Positions 5,032 through 46,650 of a stretch of 64,000 nucleotides of DNA are shown one piece after another. This DNA comes from Dehalococcoidia bacterium (GTDB lineage: Bacteria > Chloroflexota > Dehalococcoidia > Tepidiformales > Tepidiformaceae). The DNA lies in the NCBI GenBank assembly GCA_020432045.1, contig JAGQHB010000104.1:1-64000 (forward strand). Direction: 5' to 3'. The position numbers were made by a program, and so were the translations under genes. The notes beneath the pieces were generated by a model. The model was not told where the DNA came from and did not search any database. It saw only the letters and a program-made list of their open reading frames with translations. Each line of letters starts with the position of its first letter. The first letter of the stretch is position 1.

Positions 5032-5445
5032 TCAGGGCCGGCGAATCCACATGCGCCGGACGATCACTGTTTCGCTCACGGCCGCGATGTCGTCGGGCAG
5101 GCCCGAGTGGGTTTGGTTGGCGACGGCCCGTCCACGCCGGCCGCCGGGCGTGGCCACCGCTGCGCGTGCGGCCTTCTGTGCCGCCTGCCCGGCAAGGTAG
5201 CGCGACGCAAGGCTCAGGCCCATCTGCATAGCGGCACCCACCGCGACCGCTGTTACGGCCTTCTTCACGGGAGCCGGCAAGGGCGCACGCTCACGTTCGT
5301 ACCGCTGCATCGGGCGGGCGGGACGGGTTGCGAGGCTGGTCTGCTCGCGTAGCGCCGCGACGTACATGCCACAGCGCCGGCAGTAGTTGTCGTCATCGTC
5401 GTACGGTTGGGCACAATCCGGGCAGTTCAGGAATTCGTCAGCCAT
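5032..5445 (-). CDS. Zinc-ribbon protein with hydrophobic C-terminal half
   Basis: The first 25 residues contain CPDCAQPYDDDDNYCRRCG, a double CxxC zinc ribbon of the kind found in many small bacterial membrane-associated proteins. The remainder is Ala-rich with one weakly hydrophobic stretch (AVTAVAVGAAMQMGLSLASR near residues 68-87) that may be a membrane helix. I do not recognise a named family and no function can be assigned. It converges on the permease gene, and a TATACT box lies 9 nt upstream of its ATG. Confidence 0.7.
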   Translation of the reverse strand: MADEFLNCPDCAQPYDDDDNYCRRCGMYVAALREQTSLATRPARPMQRYERERAPLPAPVKKAVTAVAVGAAMQMGLSLASRYLAGQAAQKAARAAVATPGGRRGRAVANQTHSGLPDDIAAVSETVIVRRMWIRRP

Positions 5446-5486: not shown

Positions 5487-6275
5487 CTACGCCGTCTCCG
5501 AGAGGGCGCGGTTTACGTCCAGCGTCAGGTCCGCAGGTGTGCCGTCCGGCGTCGCCTCGATCCTTCCCTCCGCCAGCGACCTCAACGTCTCCACCATGAG
5601 CGGACGCTCCGCAAGCACGCCGCGTCTCCGGATTTCGGCAAATAACCGCGTCGCCTCGATCGTCTCGTTGTCAGGGTTCGCGCCAAGTGCCCGGTACTCA
5701 GCCCAAAGCGGATCCATGTCCGGCCCGGCTGTCGCGTACCGTGCATAGGTCAGCACCGGACCCCGATCCAGGTCTCCCGTGACAACGTTCCACATGCACC
5801 CGGACTCCCGCGCGCCCGTGTCCATCAGCTGGCGAATCACCTGTTGCCAGGTCCCTACCGGACCACCCGGCAGTGCCGGATGGTCGTTCAGGATCGTAAA
5901 TCGCTCGTGCAAGGCATCGGTGGCGATGAGCATGTACCCGAACATGATCGCCAGATCGAAGGAATAGCCGCCGAGAATCGTGGCTACCTCCTCGTCGAAC
6001 TCCCGCCGCCATGCGGGCAGAGGCTCGCCAGGCCTCGACAGCCTGCCGCCGCGAGCTCTACGGAACCGCACGGACGAGAGCGTTTCCACCGCCACGCCCC
6101 GCGCCTCTGCCAGAGCTATCAGGCGGTCCGTTGCTTCCGATTCACCGCGCTCGCGATTCAGAAATACGACAGCAATCGAGACGGGAAGCCCAGCATCAAT
6201 CGCTCGAAATGCGTACTCGAGCGCGCCGTATGAACCCGGCCCACGTCCTGTTGTCAGCCACGCAATTCGTAACAC
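5487..6275 (-). CDS. Formyltransferase-fold protein (PurN/Fmt-like)
   Basis: This 262-residue protein resembles the formyl_transf_N fold of PurN and methionyl-tRNA formyltransferase. The signature N-x-H is seen in FTILNDHPALPGGPVGTW and the later aspartate in VVTGDLDRGPVLTY, matching the Asn/His/Asp triad that transfers a formyl group from 10-formyl-tetrahydrofolate. The C-terminus lacks the tRNA-binding domain of Fmt, and the sequence is too divergent to call it purN. The frame is open to 6398, but similarity begins at the GTG at 6275 (VLRIAWLTTGRG), which starts 13 nt after the end of the broken HAD gene. The two probably formed one operon. Confidence 0.75.
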   Translation of the reverse strand: MLRIAWLTTGRGPGSYGALEYAFRAIDAGLPVSIAVVFLNRERGESEATDRLIALAEARGVAVETLSSVRFRRARGGRLSRPGEPLPAWRREFDEEVATILGGYSFDLAIMFGYMLIATDALHERFTILNDHPALPGGPVGTWQQVIRQLMDTGARESGCMWNVVTGDLDRGPVLTYARYATAGPDMDPLWAEYRALGANPDNETIEATRLFAEIRRRGVLAERPLMVETLRSLAEGRIEATPDGTPADLTLDVNRALSETA

Positions 6276-15173: not shown

Positions 15174-15512
15174 TCAGCGACTTCGCTCCCACTGCTTGCG
15201 GAGTGTCGCCGGTGCGGCGCGGCGCCACGACTCCGTAAGCAGTTCCTCCAAGACCGGTTCGGGCACGGCAGCCAACCGCACGACGACCCATTCGTAGCCC
15301 CGGTGGTGCTCGGTGATCACGAACGAATCCGGGTCGGCCGCTACAAGGGCATCCCGCTCGGCGAATGTCGCCCGAAGCGTGATTTGCTCGCCATCTTCCA
15401 GGAATCGCGAGAGCAGCTTCCCACGAACCTTCAACGCGGGCCGGTTGTACGATCTGCCCGTTTCAACACCCGGAAGCTTCGAACCAAGTGTCACCACGTC
15501 TTCCCATCTCAT
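15174..15512 (-). CDS. MmcQ/YjbR-family protein
   Basis: This small protein (112 residues) matches the MmcQ/YjbR fold, a CyaY-like double-wing DNA-binding or stress protein family: an early LPGVETGRSYNRPALKVRGKLL segment in two parts, then LRATFAERDALVAADPDSF and a terminal ESWRRAAPATLRK helix. Cellular role is not established for this family. The ATG at 15512 overlaps the TGA of the upstream hydrolase gene (ATGA), so the two genes form one translationally coupled unit. Confidence 0.75.
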   Translation of the reverse strand: MRWEDVVTLGSKLPGVETGRSYNRPALKVRGKLLSRFLEDGEQITLRATFAERDALVAADPDSFVITEHHRGYEWVVVRLAAVPEPVLEELLTESWRRAAPATLRKQWERSR

Positions 15513-38399: not shown

Positions 38400-39257
38400 C
38401 TACGCTGGCTCTTCGAATAGCTGAAACAACACTCCCGCACTGTCTTTTGGATGTATGAACGTATGCCGTTTCCAGGCGCTCTCGATGATTCCGCCGAACG
38501 GTTCGATGCCCTCACGCCGCAGCGCCTCCGCCGTCCGGTCCACGGACGCGACCTCGCAGCAGATGTGGTGCATCCCCGCCCGCCGCCGGTCCAGGAATTG
38601 CTGCACGAAGCTGTCAGGCCGGGCTGGCGCAATGATCTCGAACTGCAACCGGCTGTTCGGGATCGTCATAAGCGCTCCGTCGTAGCCGGAGTACTCGTCC
38701 GTCCAGCGGTTGAGGAGGGTCATCCCAAGCACGCGTTCCTGGAACTCGATCTGGCGCTCGCGGTCCGCGACCGCCATCGATACGTGGTCCACCCGAAGGA
38801 GGTCGACCGCGCCGCCTCCCGCGTTGCGATCCTCATCCCCGGGGCCATGCTGTGGCACGAACAGCTGGTACAGGATCCCGCCCGAGTCCCGCGGGTGGAT
38901 ATAGGTCACGTGCCAGCTGCCGTCGTCATTGACGCCGCCGAACGGCTCGATCCCAAGCCGCCGCAGCTCCGCCACCGCCTCGCGGATATCGGGGACTTCG
39001 AGCGTAATGTGATGGAGCCCGGGCCCCTGTTCCGTGAGGAACTTGGCGACGAAGCTTTCTTCCGTTGCCGGAGAAATCACCTCGAATTCAATGTCTGTGC
39101 CCCGGACCTGGCTTACACAGCCATCGAAGTCCTCGCCGGGCCCCGCCGGGAAGTAGCGCAGGAACTTGAACCCCAGCACGCGCTCGAGCCACTGCGACTG
39201 CGCCTCCCAGTCCGGATGGGCCATCGAGATGTGGTCCACGTGCTTGATGGTGATCAC
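38400..39257 (-). CDS. Two-domain VOC (glyoxalase-like) protein
   Basis: This 285-residue protein is a tandem of two vicinal-oxygen-chelate units of about 140 residues: IKHVDHISMAHPDWEAQSQW and RVDHVSMAVADRERQIEFQE open the repeats, and GLHHITLEVPDIREAVAEL and GMHHICCEVASVDRTAEAL are the equivalent metal strands. The His/Glu pattern fits methylmalonyl-CoA epimerase or dioxygenase-type enzymes; the reaction is not clear. The frame begins at TTG 39263, but GAGG stands seven nucleotides before the GTG at 39257. Confidence 0.85.
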   Translation of the reverse strand: MITIKHVDHISMAHPDWEAQSQWLERVLGFKFLRYFPAGPGEDFDGCVSQVRGTDIEFEVISPATEESFVAKFLTEQGPGLHHITLEVPDIREAVAELRRLGIEPFGGVNDDGSWHVTYIHPRDSGGILYQLFVPQHGPGDEDRNAGGGAVDLLRVDHVSMAVADRERQIEFQERVLGMTLLNRWTDEYSGYDGALMTIPNSRLQFEIIAPARPDSFVQQFLDRRRAGMHHICCEVASVDRTAEALRREGIEPFGGIIESAWKRHTFIHPKDSAGVLFQLFEEPA

Positions 39258-39357
39258 AGGCAAACCTCGTGCGAGTTGTTGCGGTCGCGAAAATCGTACG
39301 GGCAGCCCCGGTACGGCGCGACCACAGCGGCCGCCCGGGTGCTACGATCGTCTCCGC

Positions 39358-39633
39358 ATGGACGTCGCCTTCTACGCCACCCTCCGCCAGGTCGTCGGAC
39401 AGAAGACCATTACCGTCGACCTTTCGCCAGGCGCCACCGTGAGGTCGCTACTCGACGAAGTGACCGTGCGCTTCCCGCCGCTCGGCACGCTCATCTGGCA
39501 GCCTGATGGCTCTCTCGGGGATTACATCAAGGTGTTCGTGGACGGCCGGGAGATTCGTCACCTTCAAATGCTCGAGACCCTCGTGCCTCCGGCCGCCTCT
39601 GTCGATATCTTTCCACCAGTCGCCGGCGGTTGA
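39358..39633 (+). CDS. MoaD/ThiS-like ubiquitin-fold sulfur carrier
   Basis: This 91-residue protein has a beta-grasp fold with DVAFYATLRQVVGQKTITVDL at the start and IFPPVAGG at the end. The C-terminal Gly-Gly is where MoaD/ThiS proteins are adenylated and thiocarboxylated. It may serve molybdopterin synthesis or tungsten-enzyme assembly; no moaE, moeB or aldehyde oxidoreductase gene is in the window. The TGA overlaps the ATG of the next gene (TGATG). Confidence 0.82.
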   Translation: MDVAFYATLRQVVGQKTITVDLSPGATVRSLLDEVTVRFPPLGTLIWQPDGSLGDYIKVFVDGREIRHLQMLETLVPPAASVDIFPPVAGG

Positions 39634-39881
39634 TGCTCACCCGCATCGAGGTCCGCAATCTCGATCCTGAGCTCATCGCGTCCTATCTCGTCGACGAACT
39701 CGCCGGCCACCGATCGGGACGAGTCGTCGACGGCCCTGGCTGGGCCGTTCACCTCGTCCGCGGGGAACAGGCCGGCGTCGGCAAGTTCCGCGTACCGGTC
39801 CTCTATCTCGATGTAACCGGCTCCCGCCAACTGGAAGTCGCTGCCTTCCTCCGCCGGAAGACCATGCGCGGCGGCGGGTAA
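39633..39881 (+). CDS. Hypothetical protein coupled to the MoaD-like gene
   Basis: This 82-residue protein begins MLTRIEVRNLDPELIASYLVD and ends with a basic FLRRKTMRGGG. The Gly-rich end resembles a second thiocarboxylate-type tail but is GGG, and no beta-grasp pattern is evident. Its TGATG overlap with the MoaD-like gene shows coupled translation, so it likely works with that carrier. I do not recognise a family. Confidence 0.6.
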   Translation: MLTRIEVRNLDPELIASYLVDELAGHRSGRVVDGPGWAVHLVRGEQAGVGKFRVPVLYLDVTGSRQLEVAAFLRRKTMRGGG

Positions 39882-40061
39882 CCGGGGCCCATGTTCGTAG
39901 CCGGCGGGATGCTCGTTGGCGCGCGGTGCGTGGGCGATCGGTCGCCGGGGCACCCTCCCCCACCCCTCTCCCACTGTTGCGGGCGAGGGGTGATTGGGAA
40001 TTTCGGGCTGCCTTGGAACGATCTTCATGAGCTGGCGACGGGGCAGGCGCGGGCAGAGCTC
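39882..40061. other. Intergenic GC-skew reversal point
   Basis: This 180-bp gap between convergent genes is where the plus strand turns from C-rich to G-rich. Hand counts of whole 60-bp lines: 8041-8100 has 12 G/24 C, 18661-18720 (minus-strand gene) 15 G/24 C, 39661-39720 15 G/23 C; to the right, 40081-40140 has 24 G/16 C and 45481-45540 (minus-strand gene) 20 G/15 C. The gap contains one copy of a palindromic repeat. I see no DnaA box (TTATNCACA) in it. Confidence 0.6.
39951..39992. repeat. Palindromic repeat, copy 1
   Basis: A C-rich arm (CACCCCTC at 39961-39968) pairs with GAGGGGTG at 39985-39992, with three more G-C pairs inside after one T/C mismatch. It shares the CCCTCTCCC...GGGCGAGGG core with copies 2 and 3. 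Confidence 0.6.
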
Positions 40062-41183
40062 CTAGTCGACGCGGACCATGTCCCACCTGCCGGCGTATTC
40101 AAAGGCCGTCGCGGCGAGGAAGTTGGAGCCGAGGGGGTAGGCAAAGCGGACTCCGTCGATGATGGTGACGAACACCGGGTCTTCCAGCGGCTGGAAGGAC
40201 CGCATAAACGGAACTGCGGCGACAAACTGGAGGTCGTCGGAAAGCATCGTGCGATAAGGCACGGGGTCATTTCTTCCGTGACCTTCACGCAGTGGGGCAT
40301 CGTCTGGAAAGGGCGGGAAGTAGGTCGAGGGGTCAGATTCCTGGGGTGAGTCCCACGCGATTCGGCCGTCGACGAATGTACCTTCGATGGTCCAGTAACG
40401 AAGTGGTTCCGCATCCTGATCGTTATCGTCACGAGGATCAGGATATGTGCGGACGTACACTCGGAGCGTTGCGGGAGCGGTCCAGATGAAGTAATCCAGC
40501 TGCCAGGCACTGGCGCCGGTGACCGCTGCTGGCCAGGAAATGAGCGAACCCGTGCTCGCGTCACGGTCAACGATGACCGTTTCGCGACTGCCGGCCCGGT
40601 AGATGTAGCGGCTGGAATCGGGCGCCCATGCGGGGAGACCGCCGCTGGCGCCCGTGGCCGTTCCATTGAGCATGACGAGATCGAACTGCCCACCGACCTG
40701 AAAGACCGCGGCGCAGGATTGGCCGGGGAGGGCGACGCCGGAACCGTCTGGGGACCACGATGCGCGGTCTGCACCACCAATACAGTCGTCCCACGGCCAC
40801 ACGGCGGAAGCCACGACACGGTGGCGGGGCACGTCGAAAATCGTGGGCCGGATGGAGAAATCTGACTCGTCATCGCTGCCGAGGCCAATGAGCTGCGTCG
40901 CGTAGAGGTAGCGACCGTCGGGCGACCACGAGAGAGCGACCCAGTCGCCCGGCTCACGGAGGTCGACCTCCTCGCCCGTCGCGGTATTGATGGCGCGGAC
41001 CTGGCCCCCAAACGGATTGGCTTCATCGACGGGGACGACAAGAGCCAACCAGACGCCGGATGCGACTTTCGGTGGGTGGGGGGCGGGGAAGGCGAAGTAG
41101 AGGGTGGCCGCGAAGCCCGCGAGGAGGAGCGCGGCGATCGGAGCTGCCCGCAAGGCATTGGTCGATGCGAGGCGGCGGGACAT
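40062..41183 (-). CDS. Membrane-anchored propeller-like (TolB/WD40-type) protein
   Basis: This 373-residue protein has an N-terminal signal anchor (ALRAAPIAALLLAGFAATLYFAF near residues 10-32) and an extracytoplasmic domain with propeller-like repeats: SWSPDGRYLYATQ, SWSPDGSGVALPG and AWAPDSSRYIYRAG. No catalytic motif is seen, so it probably binds a ligand or partner outside the membrane. The frame is open to 41243, but the ATG at 41183 gives the signal anchor, and TACCCT ends 6 nt before it. It is the first gene right of the skew reversal. Confidence 0.75.
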   Translation of the reverse strand: MSRRLASTNALRAAPIAALLLAGFAATLYFAFPAPHPPKVASGVWLALVVPVDEANPFGGQVRAINTATGEEVDLREPGDWVALSWSPDGRYLYATQLIGLGSDDESDFSIRPTIFDVPRHRVVASAVWPWDDCIGGADRASWSPDGSGVALPGQSCAAVFQVGGQFDLVMLNGTATGASGGLPAWAPDSSRYIYRAGSRETVIVDRDASTGSLISWPAAVTGASAWQLDYFIWTAPATLRVYVRTYPDPRDDNDQDAEPLRYWTIEGTFVDGRIAWDSPQESDPSTYFPPFPDDAPLREGHGRNDPVPYRTMLSDDLQFVAAVPFMRSFQPLEDPVFVTIIDGVRFAYPLGSNFLAATAFEYAGRWDMVRVD

Positions 41184-41189
41184 GGTTCG

Positions 41190-41195
41190 AGGGTA
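41190..41195 (-). promoter_or_regulatory. TACCCT -10-like box, probable leaderless start
   Basis: On the minus strand TACCCT, then cgaacc, then the ATG at 41183 of the propeller-like gene. Confidence 0.38.
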
Positions 41196-41237
41196 GCGGA
41201 TTCGGCGGAGTGCCGGGCGCGGTGCGGGCTTTGGCGC

Positions 41238-41280
41238 CCTCACCCTCGGTCCCTCTCCCGCTGGCGCGGGCGAGGGGGAT
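41238..41280. repeat. Palindromic repeat, copy 2
   Basis: CCCTCTCCCGC at 41251-41261 pairs with GCGGGCGAGGG at 41266-41276 around a TGGC loop, with the same single T/C mismatch as copy 1. It lies in the promoter region between the propeller-like gene and the arsR-like gene. Confidence 0.65.
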
Positions 41281-41427
41281 GGTCAGAGCTGGGTGAGAGG
41301 TGTTGCCGTGGCGTGATTCAGAGGCCCGCGGCCAGGGGTGGCCGCGACCTTGGGTGAACGTGGGGCATGACAGTTGGGCCGGAGCAGGTGATTGTGTTAA
41401 TCGCTGTACGGTTATAAAGTGAGGAAT

Positions 41428-41760
41428 ATGCAAGAACACCTACCTGTTGCGCTGTTGGAGCATGTTGCGGAACGGTTCCGTGTGTTGGGCGATGCGACGC
41501 GGCTGGCGATCCTGCGGGTGTTGCTCGACGAGGGCGAGCTGAACGTGGGCGAGCTTGTGGAGCGGCTCGGTACGACGCAGGCGAACGTGAGCAAGCATCT
41601 GCGTGTACTGCTGAACGCGGGAGTGGTGCACCGGCGGCCCGAGGGCACGGCGGCGTATTACTCGGTGACGGACCCGAGCGCTATCCAGTTGTGCGACGTG
41701 GTCTGCAACCGGTTGCGGGAGCAGAAGGCAGAAGAGGCACGGCTGTTTTCCCTGGCCTGA
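41428..41760 (+). CDS. ArsR-family winged-helix regulator
   Basis: This 110-residue repressor-type protein has the ArsR wing-helix: FRVLGDATRLAILRVLLDEG near residues 16-35, the recognition helix TTQANVSKHLRVLLNAGVV near 48-66 and a wing with RRPEGTAAYYSV. The arsenic-type ELCVCDL metal site is absent, but a CxxxC pair occurs in the last helix (LCDVVCNRL). It is probably a sensor for the MMPL exporter gene that follows 72 nt later. The ATG at 41428 has GAGG only three nucleotides upstream; GTG 41419 is an alternative. Confidence 0.9.
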   Translation: MQEHLPVALLEHVAERFRVLGDATRLAILRVLLDEGELNVGELVERLGTTQANVSKHLRVLLNAGVVHRRPEGTAAYYSVTDPSAIQLCDVVCNRLREQKAEEARLFSLA

Positions 41761-41832
41761 GCATCCAAAGCCCATTGAGGGTATCTGCGCTTCGGCTCAA
41801 ACATTCTTTAAAAGGCATGGAGTAATTAAGAG

Positions 41833-43914
41833 ATGAACGAAGCATCCTTAGGAAAACTGGGGAAGTGGGCGAACGGCCACCGGCTGGCGGTAATCGTCAC
41901 GTGGGCGCTGTTCGCGGGCGCGCTGGGGATCTTCGCGCCAAGGCTGGAGCACGCGCTTTCGGGGGCGATGTGGGAAGTGAACGGCAGCGATTCGCTCGCG
42001 GCGCGGGAGATCATTGATGAGGAGTTCGGCGGGATGTCGTCGCAGTCGGCCGCGGTCGTGCTGCAGAGCGAGACGCTGACGGTCGATGACCCGGTGTTCC
42101 AGGAACGAATTGCCGCGGCAGCGGAGGCGATCGCGGCCGAACCTGCGTTCGGGCCAGCCGTACAGCAGCTGGGACCGGATGGCGGCACGGTGATGCTGCA
42201 GGCCGGCGCGCTGGTGAACCCGACCGAGGCAGTGCGCGCGGCGGAGCGGCTGAACGAGCACATCGGCGAGTTGGGCGATGAGACGATCGCGGTGGCGCTG
42301 ACGGGTTCGCCTGCCTTCTGGGGCGATTTCAACGCCGTGAACAAAGAAGGGATGATGAAGGCCGAGCTGCTGACGTGGCCAGTCACCGCGGTCATCCTGG
42401 TAATGGCCTTCGGGACGCTTGCAGCCGCCGGGTTGCCGCTTCTCCTGGCAGGCGCTGGCCTGATCTCAGCGATGGGCGTGCTCTACGGGATCACGCGGTT
42501 CACGGACCTGAGCATCTGGACGCTCAACTTCGCGATGATGTTCGCGATTGCACTCGGTATCGACTACGCGCTGTTTATCGTGAGCCGATTCCGCGGGGCG
42601 CTGCACGTGGCTCCGAATGACCGCGGCGGCGCAGTGGCAGCGACGATGGACACGGCCGGTAAAGCGGTGCTGTTCAGCGGGATCACGGTGTTGATCAGCC
42701 TCTCGGCGGTCTTGCTGGTGCCGATCCCTGCGTTCCGGTCGATGGCAGCGGGCATGATGCTCGCCGTCGGCTTCGTACTGCTGGCGGCGATGACGCTCCT
42801 CCCGGCCCTCCTTGGGGGATGGATCAACCGGCTTGCGCTGCCGTGGCACAGCGCAGGCGAACACCGAAGCCTGGCATGGGAGCGGTTCGCGGACAGGATC
42901 CGGCCCCGGGCCCTGCTCCTGGCAGGGCTCGTGACCGGGGCGCTGTTGCTGCTCTCCGCACCACTGCTTGGGCTGGAAACGGGGATGCCGGGGATCAATG
43001 TCCTCCCGAAGGACAAGCAGGCGCGCCAGGGTTACGACATGCTGGCACAGAGCTTCGGCCCCGGAGGGCCGGGGCCAATTCAGATCATCGTGCCCGCTGG
43101 ACAGGACGCAGGACGTGTGGCCGACGCGGTGAGTGGTACGGCCGGCGTCGCGATGGCATTTGCACCACAGCCGGGAGCGGCGGGTGCGAGCCTCATTACT
43201 GCCATCGCGACGACTGATCCTTCGAGCAAGGATTCGTCGCAGCTGATTGGGCGGCTGCGGGACACGCTCCCGGCCGGGGTGATGGTTGGCGGACCAGTGG
43301 CAGAGAACTACGACCTCGACCAGACGCTGCGGGACCGGGCACCAATCGTCATCGGGACCGTGCTGGTGCTCGGGTTCCTCTTGCTGCTGTTCGCGTTGCA
43401 AGCGGTGTTCATCGCGGTCGCGGGCGTGATCTTCAACCTCTTGTCCGTGGGCGCGGCGTTTGGTGTGGGAGCGCTGGCGTTCCAGCACGGATGGCTGGCC
43501 GGGCCAATGGGCTTCGAGAGCCAGGGCTACCTGACTTCGTGGGCGCCACTATTCTTCTTCGCGCTCGTGTTCGCGATCTCGATGGACTACACGGTGTTCC
43601 TACTGGCGTCGGCGCGGGAGCACTACGAGCGGTCGCGCGACAGCGCGGAAGCGGTGCGGGGTTCGCTTGCCCACACGGGGCGGCCGATCGTCGCAGCGGC
43701 GGCCGTAATGATCGCGGTGTTCTACACATTCGCCATCGCGGGACCGCTCCCGATGAAGGAGATGGGCATCATCCTGGGCACAGCGGTGCTCGTAGACGCG
43801 TTCCTCGTGCGCCTTGTGCTGGTGCCCGCCGTGCTTTACATGGCCGGCGACAAGGCGTGGTGGCTGCCACGCTGGGCCGACCGGATTCTGCCGGACGTGC
43901 GGTTCGCGCACTAA
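41833..43914 (+). CDS. MMPL/RND-family transporter
   Basis: This 693-residue exporter has the two-fold RND layout: helix 1 (LAVIVTWALFAGALGIF), an extracytoplasmic domain to about residue 170, five or six helices with ALGIDYALFIVSRFRG, a second extracytoplasmic domain near 385-480, and a second helix set with AISMDYTVFLLASAREHYERS. The conserved Asp of the GxDY motif is present in both halves. MMPL proteins export lipids, fatty acids or drugs using proton flux. It sits directly after an ArsR-type repressor gene, which probably controls it. Confidence 0.9.
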   Translation: MNEASLGKLGKWANGHRLAVIVTWALFAGALGIFAPRLEHALSGAMWEVNGSDSLAAREIIDEEFGGMSSQSAAVVLQSETLTVDDPVFQERIAAAAEAIAAEPAFGPAVQQLGPDGGTVMLQAGALVNPTEAVRAAERLNEHIGELGDETIAVALTGSPAFWGDFNAVNKEGMMKAELLTWPVTAVILVMAFGTLAAAGLPLLLAGAGLISAMGVLYGITRFTDLSIWTLNFAMMFAIALGIDYALFIVSRFRGALHVAPNDRGGAVAATMDTAGKAVLFSGITVLISLSAVLLVPIPAFRSMAAGMMLAVGFVLLAAMTLLPALLGGWINRLALPWHSAGEHRSLAWERFADRIRPRALLLAGLVTGALLLLSAPLLGLETGMPGINVLPKDKQARQGYDMLAQSFGPGGPGPIQIIVPAGQDAGRVADAVSGTAGVAMAFAPQPGAAGASLITAIATTDPSSKDSSQLIGRLRDTLPAGVMVGGPVAENYDLDQTLRDRAPIVIGTVLVLGFLLLLFALQAVFIAVAGVIFNLLSVGAAFGVGALAFQHGWLAGPMGFESQGYLTSWAPLFFFALVFAISMDYTVFLLASAREHYERSRDSAEAVRGSLAHTGRPIVAAAAVMIAVFYTFAIAGPLPMKEMGIILGTAVLVDAFLVRLVLVPAVLYMAGDKAWWLPRWADRILPDVRFAH

Positions 43915-43956
43915 GCACGTTTCCGTGAAGGCCCGAGATGGTTCGCGGCGGGGCGG

Positions 43957-43998
43957 CCCTCACCCCCTGCCCCTCTCCCGCTTCGCGAGGAGAGGGGG
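43957..43998. repeat. Palindromic repeat, copy 3
   Basis: CCCTCTCC at 43971-43978 pairs with GGAGAGGG at 43989-43996; the inner CGC-TTC-GCG (43979-43987) completes the hairpin, leaving one bulged A. It is the third copy of the CCCTCACCCC(n)CCCTCTCCCGC-type element and lies 43 nt after the MMPL stop, where it could also serve as a terminator. Confidence 0.6.
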
Positions 43999-44397: not shown

Positions 44398-44424
44398 CTG
44401 TTGTGATCTGTCCTGGGACGCGAG

Positions 44425-44856
44425 CTAGCCGCGAGCGGGGACGACGACGGTGGCGTGGCCGGGGGCGGTCATGACACCGTCCTGGTTGCGGACGTTGATT
44501 TCGAGGTCGATAAGGTGCTCGGCACCCTCAACACGCTTCTGGGCCACGGTTGCGACGGTGGTGAGGACGTCGTTCTTGTGGTTGATGGCGCGGAACTGCA
44601 TGGAGAGCTCGCGCACCTGGGCTTCGTCGCCGATCCAGTTGCGGAGGGCGTTGAGGACATAGGCCCAGCGGAGGTTGCCCATGCCAAATGCGGCGCCCTG
44701 GCCGGCGGCCTTGCCGACTTCATCGTCCATGTGGAGGAAGACGAACTCGTCGTTGACGGCGGCGTAGCGGTTCCAGTTCATGAAGTCGGTCTTGCGCTCA
44801 AAGGCGGGGACTTCGTCGCCGACCTTGACATCTTCGAAGTAGACGTTCTTTGCCAT
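44425..44856 (-). CDS. MaoC-like (hot-dog fold) protein, C-terminal-type half
   Basis: This 143-residue protein begins MAKNVYFEDVKVGDEVPAF and shows the MaoC hot-dog pattern: KTDFMNWNRYAAVNDEFVFLHMDDE near residues 22-46, GMGNLRWAYVLNALRNWIGD near 58-77 and a final GVMTAPGHATVVVPARG. It probably pairs with the neighbouring MaoC-type protein to form a complete enoyl-CoA hydratase/dehydratase. It is 22 nt after that gene on the same strand. Confidence 0.8.
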   Translation of the reverse strand: MAKNVYFEDVKVGDEVPAFERKTDFMNWNRYAAVNDEFVFLHMDDEVGKAAGQGAAFGMGNLRWAYVLNALRNWIGDEAQVRELSMQFRAINHKNDVLTTVATVAQKRVEGAEHLIDLEINVRNQDGVMTAPGHATVVVPARG

Positions 44857-44878
44857 TTGGTTGCTCCTGTTCCTGCGG

Positions 44879-45382
44879 CTAGTAGCGGACGCCGATGGAG
44901 ATGCGCCGCTTGACGAGTTCGCCCTTCTGGTTATGCCATTCGGATTCGTTGTAGGCGAAAATGGTAAGGCCGTTGCGGCCCTGGCGCTCTTCCCAGTGCG
45001 AGAGGCGGCTGCGCGAGGTGATGACGTCGCCGGGGCGCATGGGGATGAAGAAGGTGTCGGTCTGGCCGCCGTTGAGAATGTTTTCGCCCTTGGCGGGTTT
45101 CTTCCCTGGGACAGGGCCCATGCTCGCGCGGGCGGCGGGGCGCTCCGGGGGCCAGGCGAAGGGGTTGAAGTCTTCAGGAGCGATGATGCCGCCCCACTGC
45201 GTCGTCTTGGCGTAGTCGGCATCCCAGTAGATGCGGGGCGGGGTTTCGGGCCAGTAGACGGCAATCGCCCACTTGCGGATATCGGATTCTGAAATGGGGT
45301 AGGACTTGGTCTCGGGACCCCAGACGCCTTTGCTGGCGATCATGTCGGGAGTGACGAGTGTGGTTGGCTCGGCCGAGGTCAT
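44879..45382 (-). CDS. MaoC-like N-terminal dehydratase domain protein
   Basis: This 167-residue protein is a FAS1-type MaoC N-terminal domain: SYPISESDIRKWAIAVYWPE near residues 27-46, then DYAKTTQWGGIIAPEDFNPFAWP and MRPGDVITSRSRLSHWEERQ. With the next cistron it would make a heteromeric hydratase acting on acyl-CoA or acyl-ACP double bonds. GGAGG precedes the ATG at 45382. The gene lies 65 nt after the CoA-transferase gene and probably shares its transcript. Confidence 0.85.
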   Translation of the reverse strand: MTSAEPTTLVTPDMIASKGVWGPETKSYPISESDIRKWAIAVYWPETPPRIYWDADYAKTTQWGGIIAPEDFNPFAWPPERPAARASMGPVPGKKPAKGENILNGGQTDTFFIPMRPGDVITSRSRLSHWEERQGRNGLTIFAYNESEWHNQKGELVKRRISIGVRY

Positions 45383-45447
45383 GCGGCCCTCCTTTTCTGA
45401 TGTGCGGCGAGAATGTAGCACCGCTGGCGAAGATTCGCAGCGGTGGC

Positions 45448-46650
45448 TCAGCGGCCAGGAGTGGATGTGACGCCGGCGTCGTGCAGCTTCTCGATCTGTT
45501 CCCAGCTATAGCCGAGGTCGAGGAGGATGGTCTCGGTGTCCTGTCCAAGCTCGGGGGCGACGCCCTGGATGGCGGGCGGGGTTTCGCTATAGGAGACGGG
45601 GATACCGACGGCACGGTGCCCGGGGAAGCTGGGATGTTCGACTTCCTGGAGGTAACCGTTGTCCCAGAACTGAGGATCCTGGACGACGCTTGCGTAGTCA
45701 TATACGGGACCGGTGGGGACGTCCTGGGCGGAGATGCGATCGAGCCAATGCTGCCGGGGCATCGTGGAGACCGTGGCCTGGAGTTCGTCGGCGAGCCAGT
45801 CGGCGTTGTCCTGGCGCGCGAAGGGTTCGGCGCAGCGGGGATCGGTGATCATGTCTTCGCGGCCGAGCGCGTGGCAGAGTTTCGGCCAGTGCTTGGGATC
45901 GAGGATGCCGATGGTGAGCCAGCCGCCATCGCTGGCCTGGTACCAGGCGAAGATAGGGTTGAGCGGCTTGCCGGCCGGACGGGTGCCCTGTTGGCCGGTG
46001 TGGAGGAAGGCCTGCACGGAGAGCGCCTGGAGCGTAACCATGGCACCGAGCTGCGAGACATCGACTTTCTGTCCGACTCCGAAGCGTTCGCGGGCGACGA
46101 TGGCGCCCATGATTCCGTAGGCGAAGGTCATGGAGCCGACCTGGTCGGCGAGGCCCCAGGGGCAGTTCATGGGGACGTTTTCGGGGCCGCCACCCTGGGC
46201 GACCATCGCACCACTCATGCCCTGGGCGACGACGTCGAACGAGCCGCGGTCGCGCCATGAGCCGTAGGCGCCAAAGCCGCTGTTGGTCGCGTAGATGAGT
46301 CGGGGGTTGATGGCACGAAGGTCGTCATAGCCGTACCCGAGGCGGTCGAGGAAACCGGGGCGGAAGTTCTCGGTGAGGACATCGGCACGTTCGACAAGCT
46401 TGTGGATGATCTCACGAGATCCGGGGTTGTAGAGATTGAGCGTGACGCTGCGCTTGCCCCGGTTCAGTGCTTCGAAGTAGGAGCAGAAGCCATCGGCGCC
46501 AACGCCGAGGGAGCGGCCGGGGTCTCCAACGGCGGGCATTTCGACCTTGATGATGTTGGCTCCCATGTCGGAGAGCATGACGGTGGCGTGGGGGCCGTTC
46601 TGGTAGCGGGTGAAATCGAGGACCGTGATGCCATCGAGGGGACCGGGCAT
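45448..46650 (-). CDS. CaiB/BaiF family III CoA-transferase
   Basis: This 400-residue enzyme moves CoA between acids: GITVLDFTRYQNGPHATVMLS near the start, the nucleophile aspartate in RGSFDVVAQGMSGAM near residue 143, and WLTIGILDPKHWPKLC in the second half. The family activates acids for degradation without ATP. GGAGG stands eight nucleotides before the ATG at 46650. It is the first gene of a minus-strand operon with two MaoC-type genes and is divergent from the acyl-CoA dehydrogenase gene. Confidence 0.92.
   Translation of the reverse strand: MPGPLDGITVLDFTRYQNGPHATVMLSDMGANIIKVEMPAVGDPGRSLGVGADGFCSYFEALNRGKRSVTLNLYNPGSREIIHKLVERADVLTENFRPGFLDRLGYGYDDLRAINPRLIYATNSGFGAYGSWRDRGSFDVVAQGMSGAMVAQGGGPENVPMNCPWGLADQVGSMTFAYGIMGAIVARERFGVGQKVDVSQLGAMVTLQALSVQAFLHTGQQGTRPAGKPLNPIFAWYQASDGGWLTIGILDPKHWPKLCHALGREDMITDPRCAEPFARQDNADWLADELQATVSTMPRQHWLDRISAQDVPTGPVYDYASVVQDPQFWDNGYLQEVEHPSFPGHRAVGIPVSYSETPPAIQGVAPELGQDTETILLDLGYSWEQIEKLHDAGVTSTPGR

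Follow-up and report, generated by a model that had tools for sequence, protein, structure and literature searches.

A sharp GC-skew reversal on a Dehalococcoidia contig: origin, terminus or rearrangement endpoint

On a contig of a Dehalococcoidia bacterium, the GC skew changes from C-rich to G-rich near 39.9 kb. Does this point mark the place where replication of the chromosome starts, or do two segments that were copied on opposite strands meet there? A reversal of this kind, met alone in a draft contig, readily invites the call of an origin; a wider check of the genome argued otherwise. The window that we analyzed comprises bases 1–64,000 of the 66.2-kb contig C60 (66,216 bp), which belongs to a metagenome bin of 3.48 Mb in 115 contigs with a completeness of 96.9% and a contamination of 3.7%. 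The scan of the genome covered about 1.9 Mb (54%) of the 3.48 Mb on unordered contigs.

Position, strength and surroundings of the reversal

The reversal on C60 is real and sharp. All 2-kb windows between 1 and 40 kb have a negative skew and all those from 39–41 kb on a positive one, with values of −0.088 to the left of about 39.9 kb and +0.142 to the right of it. Change-point analysis of the contig gave a global optimum at 39,975, the cumulative skew minimum within C60 lies at 39,855, and a local 4-kb test located the sign change at 39,860 with z = 7.5. The change-point (39,855–39,980) is therefore bracketed to 39.86–39.98 kb, within or at the edge of a 180-bp gap (39,882–40,061) between two convergent, intact genes. 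At fourfold-degenerate sites read on the plus strand, the skew in the left arm is −0.18 on minus-strand genes and −0.25 on plus-strand genes, and the corresponding values in the right arm are +0.44 and +0.35, giving averages of about −0.21 and +0.40 across the reversal. Because the sign is the same on genes of both strands, the reversal is not an effect of gene orientation. These results bear out the sequence-only reading, which had described the plus strand as C-rich up to about 39.9 kb and G-rich from about 40 kb on, whichever strand the genes occupy, and had assigned the change to the interval that is the intergenic gap.

The two arms also differ in strength. The skew changes 1.6-fold in magnitude across the reversal (0.088 versus 0.142, a difference of 0.055), while the difference between adjacent stretches in 67 overlapping windows of the same size on the single-sign contigs C2 and C84 had a standard deviation of 0.015 and a maximum of 0.036, a control that is not a formal P value.

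The C-rich arm (1–39,880) carries housekeeping genes on both strands, including nuo, lipA, xseA, pyruvate kinase and an inositol-phosphate-synthase-like gene. Its last minus-strand gene encodes a glyoxalase/dioxygenase-superfamily protein (38,400–39,263) and is followed on the plus strand by an intact gene for a ThiS/MoaD-family protein (39,358–39,633; Pfam PF02597, E = 4.7e-10) and an intact gene for a conserved 82-aa protein of unknown family (39,633–39,881), the last gene of the arm; these two are conserved as a pair in relatives. The G-rich arm (40,000–64,000, and on to 66,216, where the contig ends) begins with a minus-strand gene for a propeller-like accessory protein (40,062–41,243), which has no Pfam match and only weak matches in two of the 40 other genomes searched. 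A plus-strand pair encoding an ArsR-family regulator and an MMPL transporter (41,419–43,914) comes next and is kept in several relatives, and the remainder of the arm holds CoA-transferase, acyl-CoA dehydrogenase, glycosyltransferase and similar genes, as well as one tRNA-Arg gene. Elsewhere in the bin, a contig of 4341 bp (C15, locus L122) contains two stretches that are 83–85% identical to positions 42,589–43,919 and 44,424–46,092 of the window, with a longer gap between them than in the window; it is either a second copy that has diverged or contamination from another strain.

In so fragmented a bin, the reversal might be an artifact of assembly or scaffolding, in which two segments of the same genome were joined in the wrong orientation. 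Disrupted skew is known to betray misassemblies (PMC7717575), and a synteny search gave no sign that the two flanks adjoin in relatives, whose gene order is, however, shuffled as a rule. A comparison of the inositol-phosphate-synthase neighborhood at 80 GTDB loci found no shared neighbors across the reversal. Against such a join, none of the 19-mers of 39.80–40.10 kb is repeated in the 54% of the genome checked at this level (1.9 Mb), and a DNA search of the whole genome returned only one 42-bp match of 88% at the junction, where a diverged repeat copy is located. Both genes flanking the junction on the left are complete and the one on the right has a clean end; in most cases, a join at random would interrupt a gene. 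The tetranucleotide distance between the two halves (0.095) is below the within-contig mean of 0.112. The lack of a repeated 19-mer, the single short match, the intact genes and the similar composition make a chimera between different organisms or through a repeat unlikely, and we consider a wrongly oriented join of two segments of this genome improbable as well.

Other reversals and a polar hairpin repeat

Four sharp sign changes were found in the 54% of the genome scanned, that is, three besides the one on C60. The sequence-only reading, which took the C60 reversal for a possible origin, had named other skew extremes in the genome as evidence against it, and the further reversals go part of the way toward this. 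At 15,190 (15.2 kb) of C22 (L129), the skew changes from C to G, with the same polarity as on C60, where a gene ends close to a gap; the C60 reversal at 39,860 is the larger of these two C-to-G steps. The other two run from G to C: one at 5680 (5.68 kb) of C34 (L012), exactly at a tRNA-Ser gene and 37 kb from dnaA, and one at 5110 (5.11 kb) of C103, at an Rhs-like fragment. Because the latter may be just a foreign insert, the excess of reversals is modest. Nevertheless, with two C-to-G reversals in half of the genome, one origin and one terminus cannot explain all of them.

The skew landscape is uneven in other respects. Its strength varies among contigs from strong (0.10–0.17) to near zero, with a gradual shift inside 20 kb in some cases. 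At fourfold sites, on plus- and minus-strand genes alike, the strand that is rich in G is rich in A as well. Gene-strand bias is uninformative on the polarity, with ORF strand counts of 421 to 417, tRNA genes about even and housekeeping operons split between the strands. The housekeeping genes were located with consensus-like peptide fragments as queries, which were used for location only.

A dispersed 46-bp imperfect palindrome, TGGCGCCCTCACCCTCGGTCCCTCTCCCGCTGGCGCGGGCGAGGGA, lies beside the reversal. In the 54% of the genome scanned, it is present in 83 copies at 35 loci, and its orientation follows the skew at all 25 strongly skewed loci (binomial P = 3e-8); the skew at the remaining ten is weak or unassignable. 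The copy at the reversal (39,949–39,989, plus strand) forms a hairpin of −29.8 kcal/mol (z = −3.4) and is oriented as expected for the right arm, which places the reversal at or just to the left of it. The best copy in the window lies at 41,232–41,276 and a third at 43,956–43,995, both on the plus strand, and none was found in the 40-kb C-rich arm. The pyrimidine-rich half of the palindrome comes first on the purine-rich strand, so its orientation would not be expected from strand mutation pressure acting in place. A possible explanation is strand-specific insertion, by analogy with IS200/IS605 elements, for which such insertion is known with the lagging-strand template as the target (PMC6006769); possibly, the palindrome is instead a polar signal of the chromosome. 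Inversion between polar copies was also considered as the direct cause of the reversal and rejected, because copies on opposite arms recombine into inversions that keep the skew.

Origin genes and the polarity of skew in relatives

If the reversal is the replication origin of the chromosome, replication proceeds bidirectionally from the gap at 39.9 kb with a G-rich leading strand to either side, and the origin genes are scattered. The polarity is correct for this provided that the leading strand is G-rich, and the C-to-G change is sharp on both gene strands, as the sequence-only reading had noted; that the C60 step is the larger of the two also speaks for an origin. There is a precedent in the phylum, as the chloroflexote Thermomicrobium roseum has dispersed origin genes and an origin that was placed by skew alone (PMC2615216). 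Both cases share a skew change away from dnaA and dnaN and a scatter of the origin genes. However, the T. roseum genome is closed and its skew is mirrored on a single axis, whereas several reversals and arms of unequal strength are found here. With a canonical bacterial oriC in a dnaA-dnaN-rpmH-parAB neighborhood, the locus shares only the skew polarity, again if the leading strand is G-rich, and it differs in having no origin genes, DnaA boxes or AT-rich element and in the convergent orientation of its genes.

It had been stated from the sequence that no dnaA, dnaN or parAB is near, and these genes were indeed found on other contigs. C34 carries dnaA and, close to it, gyrB and a DNA polymerase III delta-like gene; recF-dnaN is on C62 (recF being named from its position beside dnaN and its sequence, not from a family search), and C66 has rpmH and parB, separated by 6 kb. 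None of the three groups was seen beside a reversal of the C60 polarity. Given the T. roseum precedent, the missing dnaA and dnaN neighbors lower the probability of an origin without reducing it to nothing. The absence of a canonical DnaA box, also claimed earlier, holds at up to one mismatch to TTATCCACA or TTGTCCACA in 37–43 kb, that is, within 3 kb of the reversal. Since about one box per 6 kb is expected by chance, this says little by itself, and since such boxes are scarce everywhere in the 54% of the genome scanned, which showed no convincing cluster of them, the missing boxes are weak evidence against an origin. The 180-bp gap holds no AT-rich unwinding element either, and the 100-mer with the lowest GC content nearby (44%) is 1.8 kb away.

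The left flank has some connection to origin genes in relatives. In three single-contig genomes of one genus, G012, G043 and G046, the distance between the glyoxalase gene and dnaN is about 4 kb, and that between the ThiS/MoaD and 82-aa gene pair and parB about 11 kb, which favors an origin. The same relatives show the opposite skew change there, from G to C, which disfavors it. The link between glyoxalase and dnaN was discounted as support because it is particular to that genus, dnaN adjoining recF both in the genome studied here and in G011. The unequal skew on the two sides (0.055 against a control standard deviation of 0.015) is a further point against an origin, even though arms that differ in skew are known from some chromosomes (PMC8941118). 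With further reversals in the genome, arms of unequal strength and origin genes elsewhere, the call of an origin is unsafe. The polarity and sharpness on which it was based stand, but the reversal is neither the sole one nor balanced in strength, and we regard an origin at this site as possible, unlikely and not favored.

The relatives raise the question of which strand is leading. In G012, G043 and G046 (loci L235, L244, L254, L260 and equivalents), rpmH and parB are about 6 kb apart and the skew changes weakly from G to C across them. It is strong at dnaA, where fourfold skew reaches up to 0.8, and at a DnaA-domain paralogue, and in G012 and G046 the two sides have opposite signs. This pattern suggests that either the polarity of skew is reversed in these genomes or the origin genes lie at the terminus. 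The positions and strands of tRNA genes reveal a large inversion between G012 and G046. Its center, estimated from flanking markers at about 1.32 Mb in G012, is close to rpmH-parB, which lies at 1.30 Mb. The origin-terminus axis is frequently the line of symmetry of inversions (PMC5850607). Moreover, the 16S rRNA gene and the L2 operon are directed away from rpmH-parB in all three relatives. An origin at rpmH-parB in these genomes would imply a C-rich leading strand. That this holds for the family, with the relatives' origin at rpmH-parB and the rRNA genes and L2 operon co-directional with replication, is a tentative proposal that we find rather doubtful: in the relatives, the tRNA genes are concentrated in the opposite half, and housekeeping loci in the genome studied here give no consistent sign.

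Should the leading strand be C-rich, the reversal on C60 has the polarity of a terminus or marks an inversion, and the usual reading of skew is turned around. For a terminus at or near the site speak the G-to-C change across rpmH-parB in the three relatives, the position of these genes near the center of the inversion, the outward direction of 16S rRNA and L2 on what would be the C-rich strand, and the location of the large ribosomal superoperon on the C-rich strand in the present genome. These points are offset by other housekeeping operons on the G-rich strand here, by tRNA genes that show no bias, and by the surroundings of rpmH and parB, where the two stretches read are C-rich alike, with no difference in sign. 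The number of reversals and their unequal strengths argue against any point on the replication axis, and no dif-like site was found in the sequence scanned by similarity to the dif sites of three model bacteria, a comparison that would miss a diverged dif. Thus, a terminus at this position appears quite improbable.

A probable rearrangement within a replichore

We infer that the reversal was caused by an inversion or inverted translocation. The best reading, which we hold to be probable with some reservation, is that an inversion or (inverted) translocation within one replichore has one of its endpoints here, where two segments of opposite replication strand would meet. An inversion or inverted transposition confined to a replichore would exchange the leading and lagging strands of the moved segment, and the sign of the skew would then change at each endpoint until mutation has re-equilibrated the composition. 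The rearrangement would be too recent for this, with each side retaining the skew of its former strand, and it would have juxtaposed segments of different skew strength, such that both sign and strength change at the breakpoint. The breakpoint would fall in the gap between the convergent genes beside the hairpin repeat, with no gene broken. Rearrangement is favored because it fits the change in sign, the change in strength, the several reversals and the intact genes together. It is also in line with the heavily shuffled gene order between relatives and the large inversion between two of them.

Several considerations temper this reading. The two left-flank genes that are near dnaN and parB in relatives could mean that the spot is close to the origin-terminus axis, and the chromosomes with unequal arm skew cited above may, by analogy, offer another account of the difference in strength. 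No partner endpoint of opposite polarity was found in the sequence scanned beyond a candidate, the G-to-C change at the tRNA-Ser gene of C34. Of the two alternatives to an origin that the sequence-only reading had raised, an inversion, in the form of an endpoint, is now favored, and a mis-join is disfavored by the intact genes and by the lack of a repeated 19-mer in the 54% checked. An instructive comparison is the inversion in E. coli O121 that was flagged by SkewIT and shown by reads to be an assembly error (PMC7717575). It shares with the present case an abrupt change in skew sign that lies away from the origin genes and is not confined to a single site. It differs in that the error was proven by reads there, whereas our case is known from sequence and has no junction repeat in the 54% checked.

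The strictly oriented hairpin repeat could serve as a marker of replication direction that is independent of skew. If the reversed polarity is true, skew-based predictions of origins in this group would fail wherever they take the leading strand to be G-rich.
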